Notes under the pieces: generated by a model | Database searches by the model: none | The model's input: only the letters and a program-made list of their open reading frames with translations | Told to the model about the DNA's origin: nothing | In this document: positions 3,412 to 25,272 of the stretch, in pieces | How the letters are laid out: every line of letters begins with the position of its first letter | How positions within the stretch are numbered: position 1 is the stretch's first letter | Translations under genes and position numbers: made by a program | IMG/VR virus record: IMGVR_UViG_3300025110_000083 | Coordinates: 1-29,503 of that record | Origin: a virus | DNA length: 29,503 nucleotides | Strand: one strand, 5' to 3'

Positions 3412-3640
3412 AAAGTCTGCTCTGTACTAGTTCGGGATCTACCTTTGGCATTACTGCCGCAAGTTTAGATAGAGGGTTGCCATCATAAGCAATACCACTA
3501 ATGTCATTTGTTTTAAGCCATTCACAGGCTGCTTTGAGATCTTGAGTAGAAGCTTCGCCACTTTTGACTCGCTTTAGAAACTCAGTTGTTACAAGGTTAT
3601 GTAGTTCGTTAAATTGATCTTCAGTGGCTTTCTTCTTCAT
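3392..3640 (-). CDS. terS: Probable terminase small subunit (T7 gp18-like)
   Basis: An 82-aa protein starting MKKKATEDQFNELHNLVTTE. It has the short helical layout of T7-group small terminases: an N-terminal helix (DQFNELHNLVTTEFLKRVKSGEA), then STQDLKAACEWLKTNDISG, then a loop and the tail DPELVQSRLYGRKHS. The small subunit binds concatemer DNA and recruits the large subunit. The gene lies about 2.7 kb upstream of the large terminase in transcription order, separated by the HNH block. The ATG overlaps the stop of the preceding 55-aa gene (GAATGA). The call rests on length, helical pattern and position; no catalytic motif exists to confirm it. Confidence 0.75.
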   Translation of the reverse strand: MKKKATEDQFNELHNLVTTEFLKRVKSGEASTQDLKAACEWLKTNDISGIAYDGNPLSKLAAVMPKVDPELVQSRLYGRKHS

Positions 3641-7668: not shown

Positions 7669-10600
7669 TTAAGGTACCCAAGATTCTCTAATTAATAGTG
7701 TTGTTGCAGTTAAAGCTGTTCCAGCTTTAGATGTACCTGTACCAGCACTGCCACCTATAGTGCCATCTCCTTGATTGTAGTAGGTAGATCCAGGTGTCAA
7801 GTTGGATAATGTGGCTGTGTTGCCAAATGTTTTAATAGTTGCGGTATCACCATCACTATAATTAGCTTTGGAGAATCCCATGAAAAGATTTTGATTATTA
7901 TTTGTTGTAGTGTTATGGACATTCATCCTTCCACCTATGACAGAATCAGTAGTAGCAACTCGTTGGCAAATGCAAACTAATTGATCTTTAACTGAATCAT
8001 AAGTCATTGTTGGCTCACGCATATCTGAGTTATGTACCTGCTCTTGAGTGCTTTGCCAAGTAACAGTCGTACCACTAACCGTGAAACCTAAGACATATTG
8101 TCTTTCTTGGGTTTCATGCCTGTAACAACAGACAAAATAACCTTCCTCTGTAACTATAAGATCCTGACCCTTTCTTCCCGCTGGATCTTGCTTGTGATCA
8201 GCTTGAGCTTGATTACCTACACTTATAGTGTTATTAGATGAACTTGTAGTCAAAACTGCTGCCAGTATGAAACCATCAGTATCAACATCTCCAGTTTTCC
8301 ACTTGACGCATAATTTATTATTTACTGAGTCATAAGCAAGACCAATACAGCTACCGCTACTAGTTGCTTGAACTTCCGAACCCCAAGTAGTAGTTCCTGA
8401 TCCTGAACTACCTGAAACAGTTGCAGCTAGAACTTTTACACTCTGACCACTACCTGCACAAATTCCACTAATGAGTCTGTTGTTAGTTGAATCGTAAGCA
8501 CATGCAATTTGTGAATCAACATTTTGTGTCTCCGTACTAATCTTTACATCGCTACCAGCGGAGAATGTTCTGCTAGTCCCAGAACCTGAGAAATCAACAA
8601 TTCGGCAAAATACTCTACCTATGTTGCTGTTGTTTCCTCCTTGTTCCCATCTAAAGAAAATAGCCGCTCTAGTATTAGATATCCTTTGCACAGCAAATCT
8701 ACTACCACCTTCACCAGTTGCGCTGACATTATTTACTACTCCAAGGTTTAATCCTCCTCCATTCCATTGAACAGTTCTACATTGAGCTTCAGTTGCATTT
8801 CCTCTGCCCCATACAACTAACCAATAATTATCTCCTACATATTCAACCGTAGCACTGGCAGCCTGGTCATTACCTGTTTGAGCATTTGTAGTTATGGTAA
8901 CTGCACTAATTAAACCAGTAGCTAAATAGCCATTAGTTTGTCCAGAATGAGTAACTGTAGCTTTTATTGTACTATTATTTCCTCTCCAGCAAACCAGTGT
9001 AAGACCATTAGAGCTATCTACTGAACCGCTTTGGCTGTTTGCATCTGGGTTGAAAGAACAATCTATATCTCTACTTGTTTCATTAGCTAATTCAGTATAG
9101 TTTCCGCCACTAGGAGTGCCTGGAGAACTTCTGATTACCATAGTTTCACTTATTGCTTTAAATTTTCCAGCCGATGTAAGTACTACTGGCTTATTAGCGA
9201 CAAGCGCACCATCAGCTACTCCAGTTAAAGTAGGAGATGTTTCTAGGGCGGCTCCATTAACAGTTATTGCACCCGTTACGTTTATTCCACCCGAAGTCGT
9301 CTCTAATTTTTTCGCTGCATTATGAAAAAGTTCAACTTCTCCTGTATTTACTCCTTTAAAATAAGTAGCAGTTCCTGCTCCATTTTGTACATAAACAGCG
9401 TTACCTTGTAATTTTAGATTAGTAGCGTTATTTTTACGAATGGTAAAATCACCTGTACCATCATCTTTTATCCAGGTGTGGTTACCAGTACCTGTATGAT
9501 ATATATCTAGATCATTTCCAGTACCGAACCGAGCTTTAACATCATCGTTAAAGTCAGCACCGTTAGCACCACCAACACCTGCTGGTACTGATTGCCAAGA
9601 ACTTGTTCCATCACCATCTTCTCTCAGGAACTTAGTCCCACCTGATTCGCCTGTTGATTTAACATCAGTACCTTCAGATGCACCATCAGACCACTCCATT
9701 CCATTGGATGTGTACTTAAGGTATTTACCTGTAGCTGGTGCGTTGTGTATATCTAACTTGCCTTCCGAAATTGCTGCACTGCTAGATATATCTCCATTAA
9801 CAATACTACCATCAACAATCTTAGCTGATGTAACTGTATTATCACTAGGTGTACCAATACTTACTGATGATCCTTGCGTGACGATAAAGTAATCGCTACC
9901 AGCAGCAGGGGCGGCAGCAAAAATGATATCGTTGCCAGAAATTGCAAATCCCTCAGAGGGTTGTGATGTTCCAGAATTAGGTTTCTGAATAACTCCATTG
10001 ACACTAACTATTAATTGTTGAGCCATAGTAGGTGCATTAGACAGAGTAAATCTGTATGCACTACCATTGAATGTTGCACTACCACCACCAGTACCAGAGG
10101 AACTAGAGATTGTATTAATATAGAAATTACCAACTGAAGCAACGTCATCCCAAGCATTAGTTGTACCGTTGTACACCTTCATCTTGTTAGCTGCGGTGTC
10201 AAAGTACATGTCACCAGCATCATTGTTAGATCCAGGTGCAGAACCAGCTACACGGTATCTAGCGTTGAAGTCGTTTATGTCATCACTTAATTGTTTAACG
10301 TCTGTTTCAGCAGCTAGAATCTTGTGATAGTTATAGGTATTAGCAGTAGAAGTAGCTGTTACTATTAAACCAACACCAGCAGCTAATGTCTCTCCATTTA
10401 ATGAACTAGGAAAGTTATTAATAGTAACTGTAGCTGGTGTTCCATCAGTTGTACGTCCAGTTGTAGATACACCTGAACCATTAACAACCACGCCAGCTGC
10501 ATTATTGATACTAACAACAACACCGTTAGCTGGCATACTTGATGTAGCTGGAAAGCTTACTTCATCAGCAATAGTTACGAAACCACCAATAGCAGTTTGA

Positions 10601-11934
10601 GAACTAGCAACGTGAGCAGCAATAACCTTTGAAGAAGGTATCTCTGTATCACTTGTTGTGTCTAAGGTTCCACTGGAAGTTTTAAAGGACTTACCAGCTA
10701 CTATGTTCAGTTCTGCAGTACTAGCAGTAACACCATCTAATTTATTAATTTCAGATGTATTAGTAGTAGCACCATCAAGTATGTTTAGTTCTGTAGGTGT
10801 AGAGGTTAGACCATCTGTTTTATTTAATTCAGCTGTAGTAGCTGTTACACCGTCAAGTAAGTTTAGTTCTGCTGTAGTAGCAGTTACTCCATCTAGTATA
10901 TTTAATTCAGCAGTAGAGGATGTTAAACCATCTGTTTTATTCAGTTCTGCTGTAGTAGCAGTAACACCATCTAAAATGTTTAATTCAGCTGTAGTTGACG
11001 TTACTCCATCTAATATGTTTAATTCAGCTGCTGTAGATGTTACACCATCTAGTATGTTCAATTCATCTTTAGTAGCTGTGACACCATCTAAAATGTTTAA
11101 TTCAGCTGCCGTGGAGGTTACTCCGTCTAAAATATTTAACTCATCCTTTGTAGCTGTAACTCCATCAAGGATGTTCAATTCAGCTGTAGTTGAAGTAACT
11201 CCATCTAAAAGATTAATCTCATCCTTATCTGCTGTTACACCATCTAAGATATTCAGTTCAGCTGTAGTTGAAGTAACACCATCTAATAGGTTTAACTCAG
11301 CTGTACTAACTGTTGCTCCATCTAAGATAGCTAACTCTGTACTGGTTAAAGCTGCTAACTGAGTAGCTGCTCCAGACTGCATATCTTTAAGAGTTGCAAT
11401 ATCAGCATCTAGATCAACTCTTATCTGACCACTAGCAGGGCTGTTATCAACAATAGTTACACCGTCACCACCTGATACATCAGTAGTTAAGGCTGTTTTA
11501 ATCTTGTCAGTGACACGGTTCTCAATAGCTTTAGTAGTACCTACCTTTGTATCATCACTTGTATGCCAAGTTTCAGTACTTTTAATTGTCTCATCACCAG
11601 TCTGCCAAGCGGATGATGAATCTCGCTTAGCTTCCTGAGTAACATATAAGTTTTGATTAAAGTTATCGTTTAGATCTTGTGACTTAATAGCAGACCCTGC
11701 ATAGAAGGTAGCTGATAAGTTATCAACATCTGTATCACGATAAACTCTAATAGATTTTCCACTGGCGGGTACGTGTCCTGTATTAAATTTTACGGATGTA
11801 GCAGTTGGCATGGTGAATTCTGCTGTATCCGTGCCATCGACACTAATTTTAATGTCGCTGGTCTTAAGATATTCAAATGTGAAGTTGTACGTGGTTGCCC
11901 CCGTACTATTTATTGTGTTTTCTGTAACTGCCAT
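7669..11934 (-). CDS. Tail fibre protein (T7 gp17-like N-terminus), 1421 aa
   Basis: This is the main host-recognition fibre. Residues 1-150 match the T7 gp17 virion-attachment domain (TTYNFTFEYLKTSDIKISVD, VYRDTDVDNLSATFYAGSAI, DLNDNFNQNLYVTQEA). Residues about 198-414 are 17 tandem 13-residue units. Residues 560-950 hold collagen-like and beta segments, including FDTAANKMKVYNGT and the shaft-like DLDIYHTGTGNHTWIKDDGT. From about 950 to 1370 there are recurring YDS-x3-L motifs (AYDSTNNRL, AYDSVNNKL, TYDSVKDQL) at spacings of roughly 55 and 110 residues, resembling propeller blades. The tip LSNLTPGSTYYNQGDGTIGG and the final ALTATTLLIRESWVP form a common fibre end. It is 2.5 times as long as T7 gp17 (553 aa). 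It lies between the gp16-like gene and the accessory fibre. Confidence 0.93.
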   Translation of the reverse strand: MAVTENTINSTGATTYNFTFEYLKTSDIKISVDGTDTAEFTMPTATSVKFNTGHVPASGKSIRVYRDTDVDNLSATFYAGSAIKSQDLNDNFNQNLYVTQEAKRDSSSAWQTGDETIKSTETWHTSDDTKVGTTKAIENRVTDKIKTALTTDVSGGDGVTIVDNSPASGQIRVDLDADIATLKDMQSGAATQLAALTSTELAILDGATVSTAELNLLDGVTSTTAELNILDGVTADKDEINLLDGVTSTTAELNILDGVTATKDELNILDGVTSTAAELNILDGVTATKDELNILDGVTSTAAELNILDGVTSTTAELNILDGVTATTAELNKTDGLTSSTAELNILDGVTATTAELNLLDGVTATTAELNKTDGLTSTPTELNILDGATTNTSEINKLDGVTASTAELNIVAGKSFKTSSGTLDTTSDTEIPSSKVIAAHVASSQTAIGGFVTIADEVSFPATSSMPANGVVVSINNAAGVVVNGSGVSTTGRTTDGTPATVTINNFPSSLNGETLAAGVGLIVTATSTANTYNYHKILAAETDVKQLSDDINDFNARYRVAGSAPGSNNDAGDMYFDTAANKMKVYNGTTNAWDDVASVGNFYINTISSSSGTGGGSATFNGSAYRFTLSNAPTMAQQLIVSVNGVIQKPNSGTSQPSEGFAISGNDIIFAAAPAAGSDYFIVTQGSSVSIGTPSDNTVTSAKIVDGSIVNGDISSSAAISEGKLDIHNAPATGKYLKYTSNGMEWSDGASEGTDVKSTGESGGTKFLREDGDGTSSWQSVPAGVGGANGADFNDDVKARFGTGNDLDIYHTGTGNHTWIKDDGTGDFTIRKNNATNLKLQGNAVYVQNGAGTATYFKGVNTGEVELFHNAAKKLETTSGGINVTGAITVNGAALETSPTLTGVADGALVANKPVVLTSAGKFKAISETMVIRSSPGTPSGGNYTELANETSRDIDCSFNPDANSQSGSVDSSNGLTLVCWRGNNSTIKATVTHSGQTNGYLATGLISAVTITTNAQTGNDQAASATVEYVGDNYWLVVWGRGNATEAQCRTVQWNGGGLNLGVVNNVSATGEGGSRFAVQRISNTRAAIFFRWEQGGNNSNIGRVFCRIVDFSGSGTSRTFSAGSDVKISTETQNVDSQIACAYDSTNNRLISGICAGSGQSVKVLAATVSGSSGSGTTTWGSEVQATSSGSCIGLAYDSVNNKLCVKWKTGDVDTDGFILAAVLTTSSSNNTISVGNQAQADHKQDPAGRKGQDLIVTEEGYFVCCYRHETQERQYVLGFTVSGTTVTWQSTQEQVHNSDMREPTMTYDSVKDQLVCICQRVATTDSVIGGRMNVHNTTTNNNQNLFMGFSKANYSDGDTATIKTFGNTATLSNLTPGSTYYNQGDGTIGGSAGTGTSKAGTALTATTLLIRESWVP
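10693..11343 (-). repeat. Coding repeat: 17 units of 13 codons in the tail fibre
   Basis: The encoded unit is roughly TAELNILDGVTST/AT, with variants KDELNILDGVT, TAELNKTDGLT and TSEINKLDGVT. The period is 39 bases, and neighbouring copies share long identical stretches, so the array is open to expansion or contraction by recombination. At protein level it would build a regular trimeric beta or coiled shaft. The + strand shows an open antisense frame over the same bases, an effect of the periodic codons. Confidence 0.92.
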
Positions 11935-24153: not shown

Positions 24154-24228
24154 TTATCTATGTTTTAATTTTATGAGTTGTATAAATCTTCTTCGCATGC
24201 AAATTAAATTGAATGTTTTGTGGTCTTT

Positions 24229-24252
24229 CCCACCGTCTAGACGGCTAATGGG
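24229..24252 (-). other. Palindromic hairpin between tRNA-Gly and capsid gene
   Basis: A perfect 12-base palindrome (CCGTCTAGACGG, 24233-24244) is flanked on the coding strand by CCCA with a TTAG spacer and by TGGG, allowing an extended stem with a bulge. No T-run follows, so it is not an ordinary terminator. It may be an RNA-processing site that releases the tRNA and the capsid message, or a protein-binding site. Confidence 0.55.
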
Positions 24253-24280
24253 TATCTGTCGTAACAGGCCAAGAGCCAAA

Positions 24281-24351
24281 AGCGAGCTATCGGAATCGAA
24301 CCGATGAACCTAGCTTGGAAGGCTAGAGTTTTACCGCTAAACTAAGCTCGC
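24281..24351 (-). tRNA. tRNA-Gly (anticodon UCC)
   Basis: A complete 71-base cloverleaf is readable. The acceptor stem GCGAGCT/AGCTCGC is perfect. The D-stem is GTTT/AAAC with loop AGCGGTA. The anticodon stem CTAGC/GCTAG has loop CTTCCAA (anticodon TCC, reading GGA). The variable loop is 4 bases, and the T-stem ATCGG/CCGAT has loop TTCGATT. The discriminator base is T, usual for bacterial tRNA-Gly. The 3' CCA is not encoded. It lies between the 60-aa gene and the capsid gene in the same direction, so it would be cut from the structural transcript. Confidence 0.95.
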
Positions 24352-24378
24352 TAGAAAGGTACCGAAGTACCTCTCTAT

Positions 24379-24561
24379 TTATAAAGTTGTTAAAGCTTCT
24401 TCAATACCTATGTCTGGCATATCATCAGCTGGAATTTCTTCTTCAATCGTAAGTGGGTCCATCATGTGTAGAGGGATTCCTGATTTAGAGAATTCGGGTT
24501 CGGGTGTAAGGCTTGTGATCTGTGCCTTATCTCCTTCGCAGTCTGATTGATGATGTGACAT
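24379..24561 (-). CDS. Small acidic protein, 60 aa
   Basis: Starts MSHHQSDCEGDKAQITSLTP and ends DIGIEEALTTL. It is acidic, with Pro-rich and Met-containing stretches (HMMDPLTIEEEIPADDMPDI), and no membrane or signal sequence. Its ATG overlaps the stop of the beta-barrel-like gene by one base (TAATG), implying coupled translation. The function is unknown. Confidence 0.7.
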   Translation of the reverse strand: MSHHQSDCEGDKAQITSLTPEPEFSKSGIPLHMMDPLTIEEEIPADDMPDIGIEEALTTL

Positions 24562-24923
24562 TAGAAAGTATACTTAGCTCCAGCCTTAACGTTATATACA
24601 TTGTCTAAATCGCCAGCTGTGATGCCAGCGAACTCACCATAGAAGCCTACCTTATCAGTTGCCTTAAGGTTAGCTCCGATCTTACCAGAGATCTCAGTGT
24701 TAGTACCATCAATACCTTCAGTTGCAAGTACTGTTGGACCACCTTGAACATAGTAAGCTACCTTATCAGTACCTCCTTCATATCCAACGTGGAAGTCAAT
24801 GGCTCTACCAAAATAGTCAGAACCTGTGTAACCCTGATTCAATTCAGTGTTAACATATACTCCCGCGAATGCAGGTGCAGACGCTAGAGTGGTTGTTGCG
24901 AGAGCAAGTGCAAGTGTTTTCAT
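24561..24923 (-). CDS. Secreted outer-membrane beta-barrel-like protein, 120 aa
   Basis: The chosen start MKTLALALATTTLASAPAFA at 24923 gives a textbook signal peptide with cleavage after AFA; the longer frame upstream overlaps the 20-aa peptide and is not used. The mature protein of about 100 residues has alternating patterns suggesting six or so beta strands (GVYVNTELNQGYTG, AIDFHVGYEGG, KVAYYVQGGP, KIGANLKATDKVGFYGEFAG, VKAGAKYTF). It ends in Phe, as in outer-membrane proteins whose last strand is recognised by the BAM complex. Similar small proteins are, from memory, frequent in cyanophages. It sits six bases after the peptide gene led by the glutamine-II-like element, so it may be expressed with it. 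A role in altering the host outer membrane during infection is possible but inferred. Confidence 0.85.
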   Translation of the reverse strand: MKTLALALATTTLASAPAFAGVYVNTELNQGYTGSDYFGRAIDFHVGYEGGTDKVAYYVQGGPTVLATEGIDGTNTEISGKIGANLKATDKVGFYGEFAGITAGDLDNVYNVKAGAKYTF

Positions 24924-24928
24924 TTTAA

Positions 24929-24991
24929 TTAAATTGTTTTTGATTTTGTATAAGTGATGCCACGATACTTGTAAGTAACTTTTACAGTCAT
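24929..24991 (-). CDS. Riboswitch-associated micropeptide, 20 aa
   Basis: A 20-codon frame starting MTVKVTYKYRGITYTK. A GGAG ribosome-binding site (25002-24999) lies seven bases before the ATG and is part of the structured leader. The Tyr/Lys-rich YKYRG-x-Y motif recalls short peptides encoded after Downstream-peptide RNAs in marine picocyanobacteria and their phages, and the YRG-x-Y core of DUF4278. The stop is six bases from the next ATG. The function of such peptides is unknown. Confidence 0.75.
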   Translation of the reverse strand: MTVKVTYKYRGITYTKSKTI

Positions 24992-24998
24992 GATTAAT

Positions 24999-25058
24999 CT
25001 CCAAGTACCTAAGCCCCGTTCCATGCTTAGGTCGTCATGCGTCCCATGGGGATGAACG
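24999..25058 (-). promoter_or_regulatory. Glutamine-II (Downstream-peptide) type riboswitch
   Basis: On the coding strand the leader reads CGTTCATCCCCATGGGACG, then CATGACGACCTAAGC, a 10-base loop, GCTTAGG and TACTTGGAG. Visible pairing: CGT/ACG with CCC/GGG in the first part, and a perfect 7-bp hairpin CCTAAGC/GCTTAGG closed by ATGGAACGGG. The loop GAACGG can pair with CCGTTC upstream, giving a pseudoknot. CGTTCA, GGGACGCATGACG and the final SD-containing TTGGAG fit my memory of the Downstream-peptide consensus. That class binds L-glutamine in cyanobacteria. Its place directly before a 20-codon peptide is diagnostic of the class. Ligand binding here is inferred. Confidence 0.78.
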
Positions 25059-25077
25059 GACGTGGCGTTGAGTCAAC

Positions 25078-25272
25078 CTAGAATACTCCAGGTATAATAT
25101 CTCCAGTGAAAAGATAAGCTCCTACTGCAGCAACGAATCCAATCATTGCTAAGCGGCCATTTAATTCCTCTGCATCGTGGAAGAGGATCTCTTGTTCTTT
25201 TTGGTTCATTAATCGTGGGGGTGTTTCGTTTGCGAAAATGTTTTGCTTACCGTATTCGGTTGTAGTAGGCAT
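25078..25272 (-). CDS. hli: High-light-inducible protein (Hli/HLIP)
   Basis: A 64-aa single-helix chlorophyll-binding protein of the thylakoid membrane, which protects photosystem II and chlorophyll-synthesis complexes during infection under light stress. The signature EELNGRLAMIGF lies at residues 35-46, followed by a hydrophobic helix (VAAVGAYLFTGDIIPGVF). The Glu/Asn/Arg residues that bind chlorophyll are intact. A second possible start at Met22 would still include the whole helix. It lies in the scaffold-capsid slot used for host-derived photosynthesis genes in T7-like cyanophages; psbA is absent here. Acquisition from a cyanobacterial host is the accepted origin of this family. Confidence 0.95.
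   Translation of the reverse strand: MPTTTEYGKQNIFANETPPRLMNQKEQEILFHDAEELNGRLAMIGFVAAVGAYLFTGDIIPGVF

Follow-up and report, generated by a model that had tools for sequence, protein, structure and literature searches.

Type-2 glutamine (Glutamine-II) riboswitches of picocyanobacteria are linked to DUF4278 proteins and activate on glutamine (PMC6316151); the class has been published as a translational ON switch with a DUF4278 partner (PMC6316151, PMC6698751). The bases contacting glutamine in the crystal structure 6QN3 (Huang 2019) are CGUUC, CGC, A33, and GGAACGGG (PMC6698751), and the expression platform is given in the same paper only as a likely competing structure (PMC6698751). A passage in Weinberg 2010 (PMC2864571) already takes the conserved amino-acid sequence behind these RNAs as a regulatory hint. 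The Glutamine-I (glnA) riboswitch of gifB belongs to the same ligand class, differs in architecture, and controls IF17, which carries DUF4278 and inhibits glutamine synthetase (PMC6316151); its DUF4278 part is dispensable for inhibition (PMC6316151). T4-like cyanophages and the methylophage Melnitz also carry glutamine riboswitches, which differ from the present case in the phages and genes concerned, that of Melnitz being of the glnA type and situated in the tmRNA region (PMC9964418, PMC9004378). The literature searched contained no report of a Glutamine-II riboswitch from cyano-podoviruses.

The element described here lies in a 29.5-kb viral record of a T7-like cyano-podovirus (29,503 nucleotides, the whole stretch of DNA that was analysed, hereafter the window), the cultured relatives of which include NATL1A-7, NATL2A-133, P-SSP7, and P-GSP1. 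With the Glutamine-II units of picocyanobacteria known from the literature (e.g., PMM1846) it shares the aptamer, the contact bases, a small YRG protein, and the translational position. However, the picocyanobacterial leader has its own (NtcA-type) promoter, whereas the phage element is embedded in a late operon, between hli/psbA and the capsid gene; furthermore, the phage peptide is cut to 14–38 aa, and some phages add an outer membrane-like protein (OMP) as a passenger. On the phage elements tested, the Glutamine-I model scored 17–18 bits, which is below its cut-off, and the phage micropeptide lacks the inhibitory part of IF17, the DUF4278 motif being all that the two have in common.

The aptamer and its genomic setting

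On the minus strand of the window, the gene order is ribonucleotide reductase beta subunit, portal, scaffold, hli, riboswitch, micropeptide, OMP, a 60-aa ORF, tRNA-Gly, capsid, and tail genes. The features of the region are as follows.

25078..25272 (−): high-light-inducible protein gene, hli (phrog_178, 4e-23)
25008..25061 (−): Glutamine-II riboswitch aptamer (RF01704, contact bases, P1/P2 covariation)
25058–25054 with 25021–25017 (−): pseudoknot
25052–25049 with 25045–25042 (−): P1
25032–25025 with 25014–25007 (−): P2, up to 8 bp
25058–25054, 25041–25039, 25024, and 25022–25015 (−): ligand-contact sites CGUUC, CGC, A33, and GGAACGGG
24964..25009 (−): P3, proposed expression platform (leader-ORF complementarity, column covariation, codon bias)
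24999..25002 (−): Shine-Dalgarno (SD) sequence GGAG of the micropeptide, 7 nt before the ATG
24929..24991 (−): 20-codon micropeptide MTVKVTYKYRGITYTKSKTI, YRG..Y (DUF4278-like)
24561..24923 (−): Phage_OMP gene, 120 aa with signal peptide (PF24653, 3e-39; phrog_417, 1e-36)
24379..24561 (−): 60-aa ORF, its start overlapping the OMP stop codon as TAATG
24280–24352 (−): tRNA-Gly (UCC), abutting the capsid leader
24219..24280 (−): capsid-gene leader, a conserved structured RNA separate from the riboswitch, single copy in the window

When the window was searched against Rfam (cmscan), the Glutamine-II model RF01704 matched at 25061–25008 (−) with 52.5 bits (E 3e-10; gathering score, 33 bits) and was, together with a tRNA, the sole match. 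The class assignment of an earlier note on this DNA (Glutamine-II/Downstream-peptide) was thus right, and the covariance-model search it had proposed gave a score well over the cut-off. All contact bases (C1–C5, C17–C19, A33, and G35–G42, read against the description in PMC6698751) are kept, and the exact aptamer pattern was matched in none of 100 shuffles. Among 35 distinct relatives, P1 and P2 covary: 98.5% of the cells were paired vs 82.7% in shuffles (0/500), and changes on both sides of a pair numbered 82 vs 18.6 in shuffles, being found at 10 of the 17 pairs. The pseudoknot was invariant across relatives, partly since the search pattern had demanded those bases. Both structures proposed in the earlier note, the hairpin P2 and a GAACGG/CCGTTC pseudoknot, are present; the hairpin is, however, not limited to the 7 bp given there, since P2 can form 8, and the GGAG, placed by the note within the structured 3′ end, falls downstream of the modelled aptamer (25002–24999). 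Judged by its bases and covariation, the RNA at 25061–25008 is a true type-2 glutamine riboswitch, its ligand being assigned from class members.

The element is intercistronic, as the hli stop codon lies only 16 nt 5′ of the aptamer. A promoter in this 16-nt gap was considered and rejected, the site search there being empty; neither was a sigma70-like site found elsewhere on the minus strand in the region. Outside this region, the window encodes (7669–11934, −) a protein of 1421 aa in which units of type LDGVTSTTAELNILDGVTATKDEL recur many times in tandem.

Genes linked to the riboswitch

To avoid the bias of loci found via the OMP, the riboswitch by itself was used to search viral contigs, which gave at least 120 matches; among the matches listed, 104 distinct loci extended far enough downstream to be compared. 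The YRG..Y micropeptide followed directly 3′ of the riboswitch in all 104. In contrast to the single conserved riboswitch-peptide-OMP module that had been proposed, the OMP followed in 27 of these loci among the matches listed and was missing there from the other 77; in eight, it lay upstream, near hli/psbA (L067, L076, L084, L102, L131, L133, L140, and L156, L131 having copies on both sides). P-SSP7, P-GSP1, P-SSP2, and P-SSP3 keep the riboswitch and the peptide with no OMP there, and in L013 and L014 the OMP sits directly behind hli with no riboswitch. The comparison of synteny thus leaves, as far as gene order can tell, riboswitch plus micropeptide as the constant pair, and the OMP as an optional, lineage-specific passenger. 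The element usually lies between hli or psbA and the capsid gene, which was the first recognised downstream gene, and hence the commonest, in 74/104 loci; in 35/104, the psbA stop was at most 25 nt away (both among the matches listed). Of the 21 cultured cyano-podoviruses checked, 15 had an RF01704 match over the cut-off; the model was sub-threshold in S-SBP1 and absent from Syn5, P60, S-B28, S-CBP2, and S-CBP42; sub-threshold matches were also obtained for the cyanomyoviruses P-SSM2, P-TIM68, and S-RIM2. The lone genome-collection match (L064, Burkholderiales) to a differently spaced pattern, which had missed the window, was taken as chance.

Across 105 distinct coding cores, the motif Y-R-G-x-x-Y, with its second tyrosine, was invariant but for third-position wobble. 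Single-codon differences in frame were 12,940 synonymous vs 3,213 nonsynonymous; in the shifted frames, the numbers were 2,999 vs 12,543 and 1,257 vs 18,124, so that the synonymous excess was confined to the coding frame. By this measure, the micropeptide is under purifying selection at the protein level. It is 14–38 residues long across relatives, the motif being retained irrespective of N-terminal extensions of varying length. Assignment to DUF4278 rests on longer relatives (micropeptides of 32–37 aa at the same site), since the window's own 20-mer matched nothing in Pfam, including PF14105, at E ≤ 1: when ten relatives were scanned, one matched PF14105 with 30.5 bits (cut-off, 25.3) and six more scored 15–20 bits. 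PF14105 found no match across the phage's own record; tblastn with the 20-mer, which is too short a query, gave no matches. Since longer micropeptides match DUF4278 and picocyanobacteria link DUF4278 to this riboswitch class, the phage pair would most simply be a host-derived, shortened copy of the picocyanobacterial unit. Most likely, the target of the micropeptide would be nitrogen assimilation in the host or the regulators of that process.

The protein encoded next matched PF24653 (Phage_OMP) over its full length with 134.5 bits (cut-off, 27). Its AlphaFold2 model (pLDDT 73.6) is a six-strand beta meander behind a disordered signal peptide, and its Foldseek matches were weak (best E 0.05), mostly to outer membrane barrels such as OprF and OmpX. 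The earlier note's order of riboswitch, 20-codon peptide, barrel-like protein with signal peptide, and coupled 60-aa ORF was correct; the gap between peptide and OMP is 5 nt instead of six. With this spacing, and with no SD of its own, the OMP of this phage probably depends for its translation on coupling to the micropeptide and would share its control, which makes glutamine control of the OMP plausible here. An SD between peptide and OMP was lacking in all 75 riboswitch-OMP loci, but this is weak evidence of coupling because most genes of this phage have no recognisable SD.

Further structured RNAs precede the capsid gene. The capsid leader, which 113 of the 132 related loci have, is composed of UUGGC..GCC, CCUNUACGNAGG, AUACC, the palindrome CCGUCUAGACGG, and the hairpin GUGG-GAUAGA-CCAC, the hairpin stems being compensated (GUAGG/CCUAC, GUGUG/CACAC, ACUG/CAGU); even at E ≤ 1, it matched nothing in Rfam. 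In P-SSP7 (L006, 3119–3165) and 36 other OMP-less loci, the micropeptide and the capsid leader are separated by a tRNA-like element consisting of a T-arm with a T-loop-like sequence and a 5-bp acceptor-like stem, the 5′ strand of which falls within the final micropeptide codons. This stem is compensated (GAGTA/TACTC, GAATA/TATTC, GATAA/TTATC) and perfect in 27/37 loci vs 7.1 in shuffles (0/2000); the element may signal processing by RNase P ahead of the capsid cistron. At its place, the window has a true tRNA-Gly, which also occurs at the equivalent site in NATL1A-7 and a few contigs, most relatives being without it. Loci without the tRNA-like element (L065 at about 3520–3560, L069, L071, L101, L122, and others) have, at the equivalent position before the capsid leader, an alternative conserved hairpin with the loop CACCUCAG(A/U)GU(C/A)GGA; in L065, it had no Rfam match.

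Complementarity between leader and micropeptide codons

Downstream of the aptamer, the leader sequence GGUACUUG (25009–25002) can pair with CAAGUAUC (24971–24964), i.e., codons 7–10 of the micropeptide, with one G-U pair. The two strands of this helix (P3) flank the SD and the AUG of the micropeptide, and the codons involved precede and include those of the first Y and R. The leader GGU at 25009–25007 is common to P3 and to the outer three pairs of P2 (ACC:GGU). Over 116 leader-ORF pairs, the mean duplex energy was −10.6 kcal/mol vs −7.3 (sd 0.2) when partners were exchanged (0/200), and the complementarity singled out this stretch of the ORF (−6.4 and −6.0 kcal/mol vs about −3.7 elsewhere). 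Column pairing in P3 was matched by 0/2000 shuffles overall, by 0/2000 for the K class of peptides, and by 1/2000 for the V class. Codon usage was likewise biased: lysine in P3 was encoded by AAG in 63/65 cases vs 114/338 elsewhere and tyrosine by TAT in 122/127 vs 38/194, although p-values for this bias overstate it because related sequences are not independent. The rare AAA (2/65) co-occurs with a matching leader, GGUAUU in place of GGUACU, and between L027 and its close relative L028 a leader base and a K-to-M codon changed together, in a compensated manner. One clade (YCYRG peptides) did not show the pairing. When the pseudoknot strands were held out, SD accessibility in a nested fold was 0.31 vs 0.32 (15 up and 12 down of 132); as no systematic change resulted, the switch step was not reproduced in silico. 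The pairing of leader and codons appears to be a new observation, and P3 is a likely expression platform of the riboswitch.

A candidate ON switch and its alternatives

Taken together, the element probably acts at the level of translation as an ON switch for a micropeptide of host origin within a late operon (portal-scaffold-hli/psbA-capsid) of a T7-like cyanophage, between two genes of which it is placed, the OMP being a coupled passenger in this phage. Its main job would be to turn on translation of the conserved YRG..Y micropeptide, a putative minimal form of DUF4278. Without glutamine, the leader GGUACUUG would pair with the codons CAAGUAUC and close a hairpin around SD and start codon. 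Glutamine would stabilise the pseudoknot and P2; since the GGU is common to P2 and P3, P2 should then compete for it, reclaim it, and weaken the hairpin, allowing ribosomes to load. The direction of switching we infer from class members, and the strand competition from the shared bases. The phage would, thus, probably tune the micropeptide and, in this genome, the OMP to the nitrogen state of its host.

That the riboswitch chiefly controls the OMP, tying a change in the host envelope to glutamine and leaving the peptide as a spacer or leader, would agree with the tight spacing and gene order here and in the 27/104 loci among the matches listed, and with the lack of an SD before the OMP (75/75 loci). 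Yet, this is improbable given the 77/104 loci (among the matches listed) without an OMP there, the eight with an upstream OMP, the riboswitch-free OMP behind hli in L013 and L014, and the cultured phages, such as P-SSP7, that keep riboswitch and peptide with no OMP at this place. Unlikely as well is that the micropeptide is a functionless leader ORF, the glutamine-gated translation of which governs either the OMP downstream, through coupling, or the capsid leader together with the tRNA-like element. At both ends of the ORF, which can be as short as 13 codons, RNA pairing does constrain the codons, the 5′ strand of the tRNA-like element/capsid leader overlaps its last codons in OMP-less phages, and capsid is the commonest next gene among the loci listed; however, a functionless ORF accords poorly with the invariance of Y-R-G-x-x-Y despite third-position wobble, with the DUF4278 matches of longer relatives, and with the persistence of the motif behind N-terminal extensions of differing length. 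Finally, the aptamer fold might persist because it stabilises the mRNA or serves its processing between cistrons, glutamine sensing having been lost. Its intercistronic place abutting psbA or hli and the unchanged SD accessibility in silico fit this idea, but it is very improbable, as every ligand-contact base is conserved whereas P1 and P2 have undergone compensated drift.

Going beyond the ON switch for the micropeptide favoured here, the micropeptide may, tentatively, be dual-coding, its YRG codons hiding its own ribosome binding site, so that sensor, platform, and effector would be combined in about 130 nt. Cyano-podoviruses as a group would then respond to plentiful glutamine by releasing a DUF4278 mini-effector, derived from the host and acting on nitrogen metabolism, and in OMP-less relatives the same translation might open the tRNA-like element before the capsid gene.

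As far as can be judged from comparative sequence analysis, an established riboswitch family is found here in a phage context conserved across cyano-podoviruses, in which the proposed envelope module is lineage-specific and it is the micropeptide that counts, across phages, as the regulated product. This product, a conserved phage micropeptide that usually goes unannotated, is thereby named, and P3 offers an expression-platform mechanism for the Glutamine-II class that is testable via codon-leader pairing. Model systems are at hand, since P-SSP7, P-GSP1, NATL2A-133, and others carry the riboswitch-micropeptide pair, which gives a testable route by which abundant ocean phages would read the nitrogen status of their host during infection.
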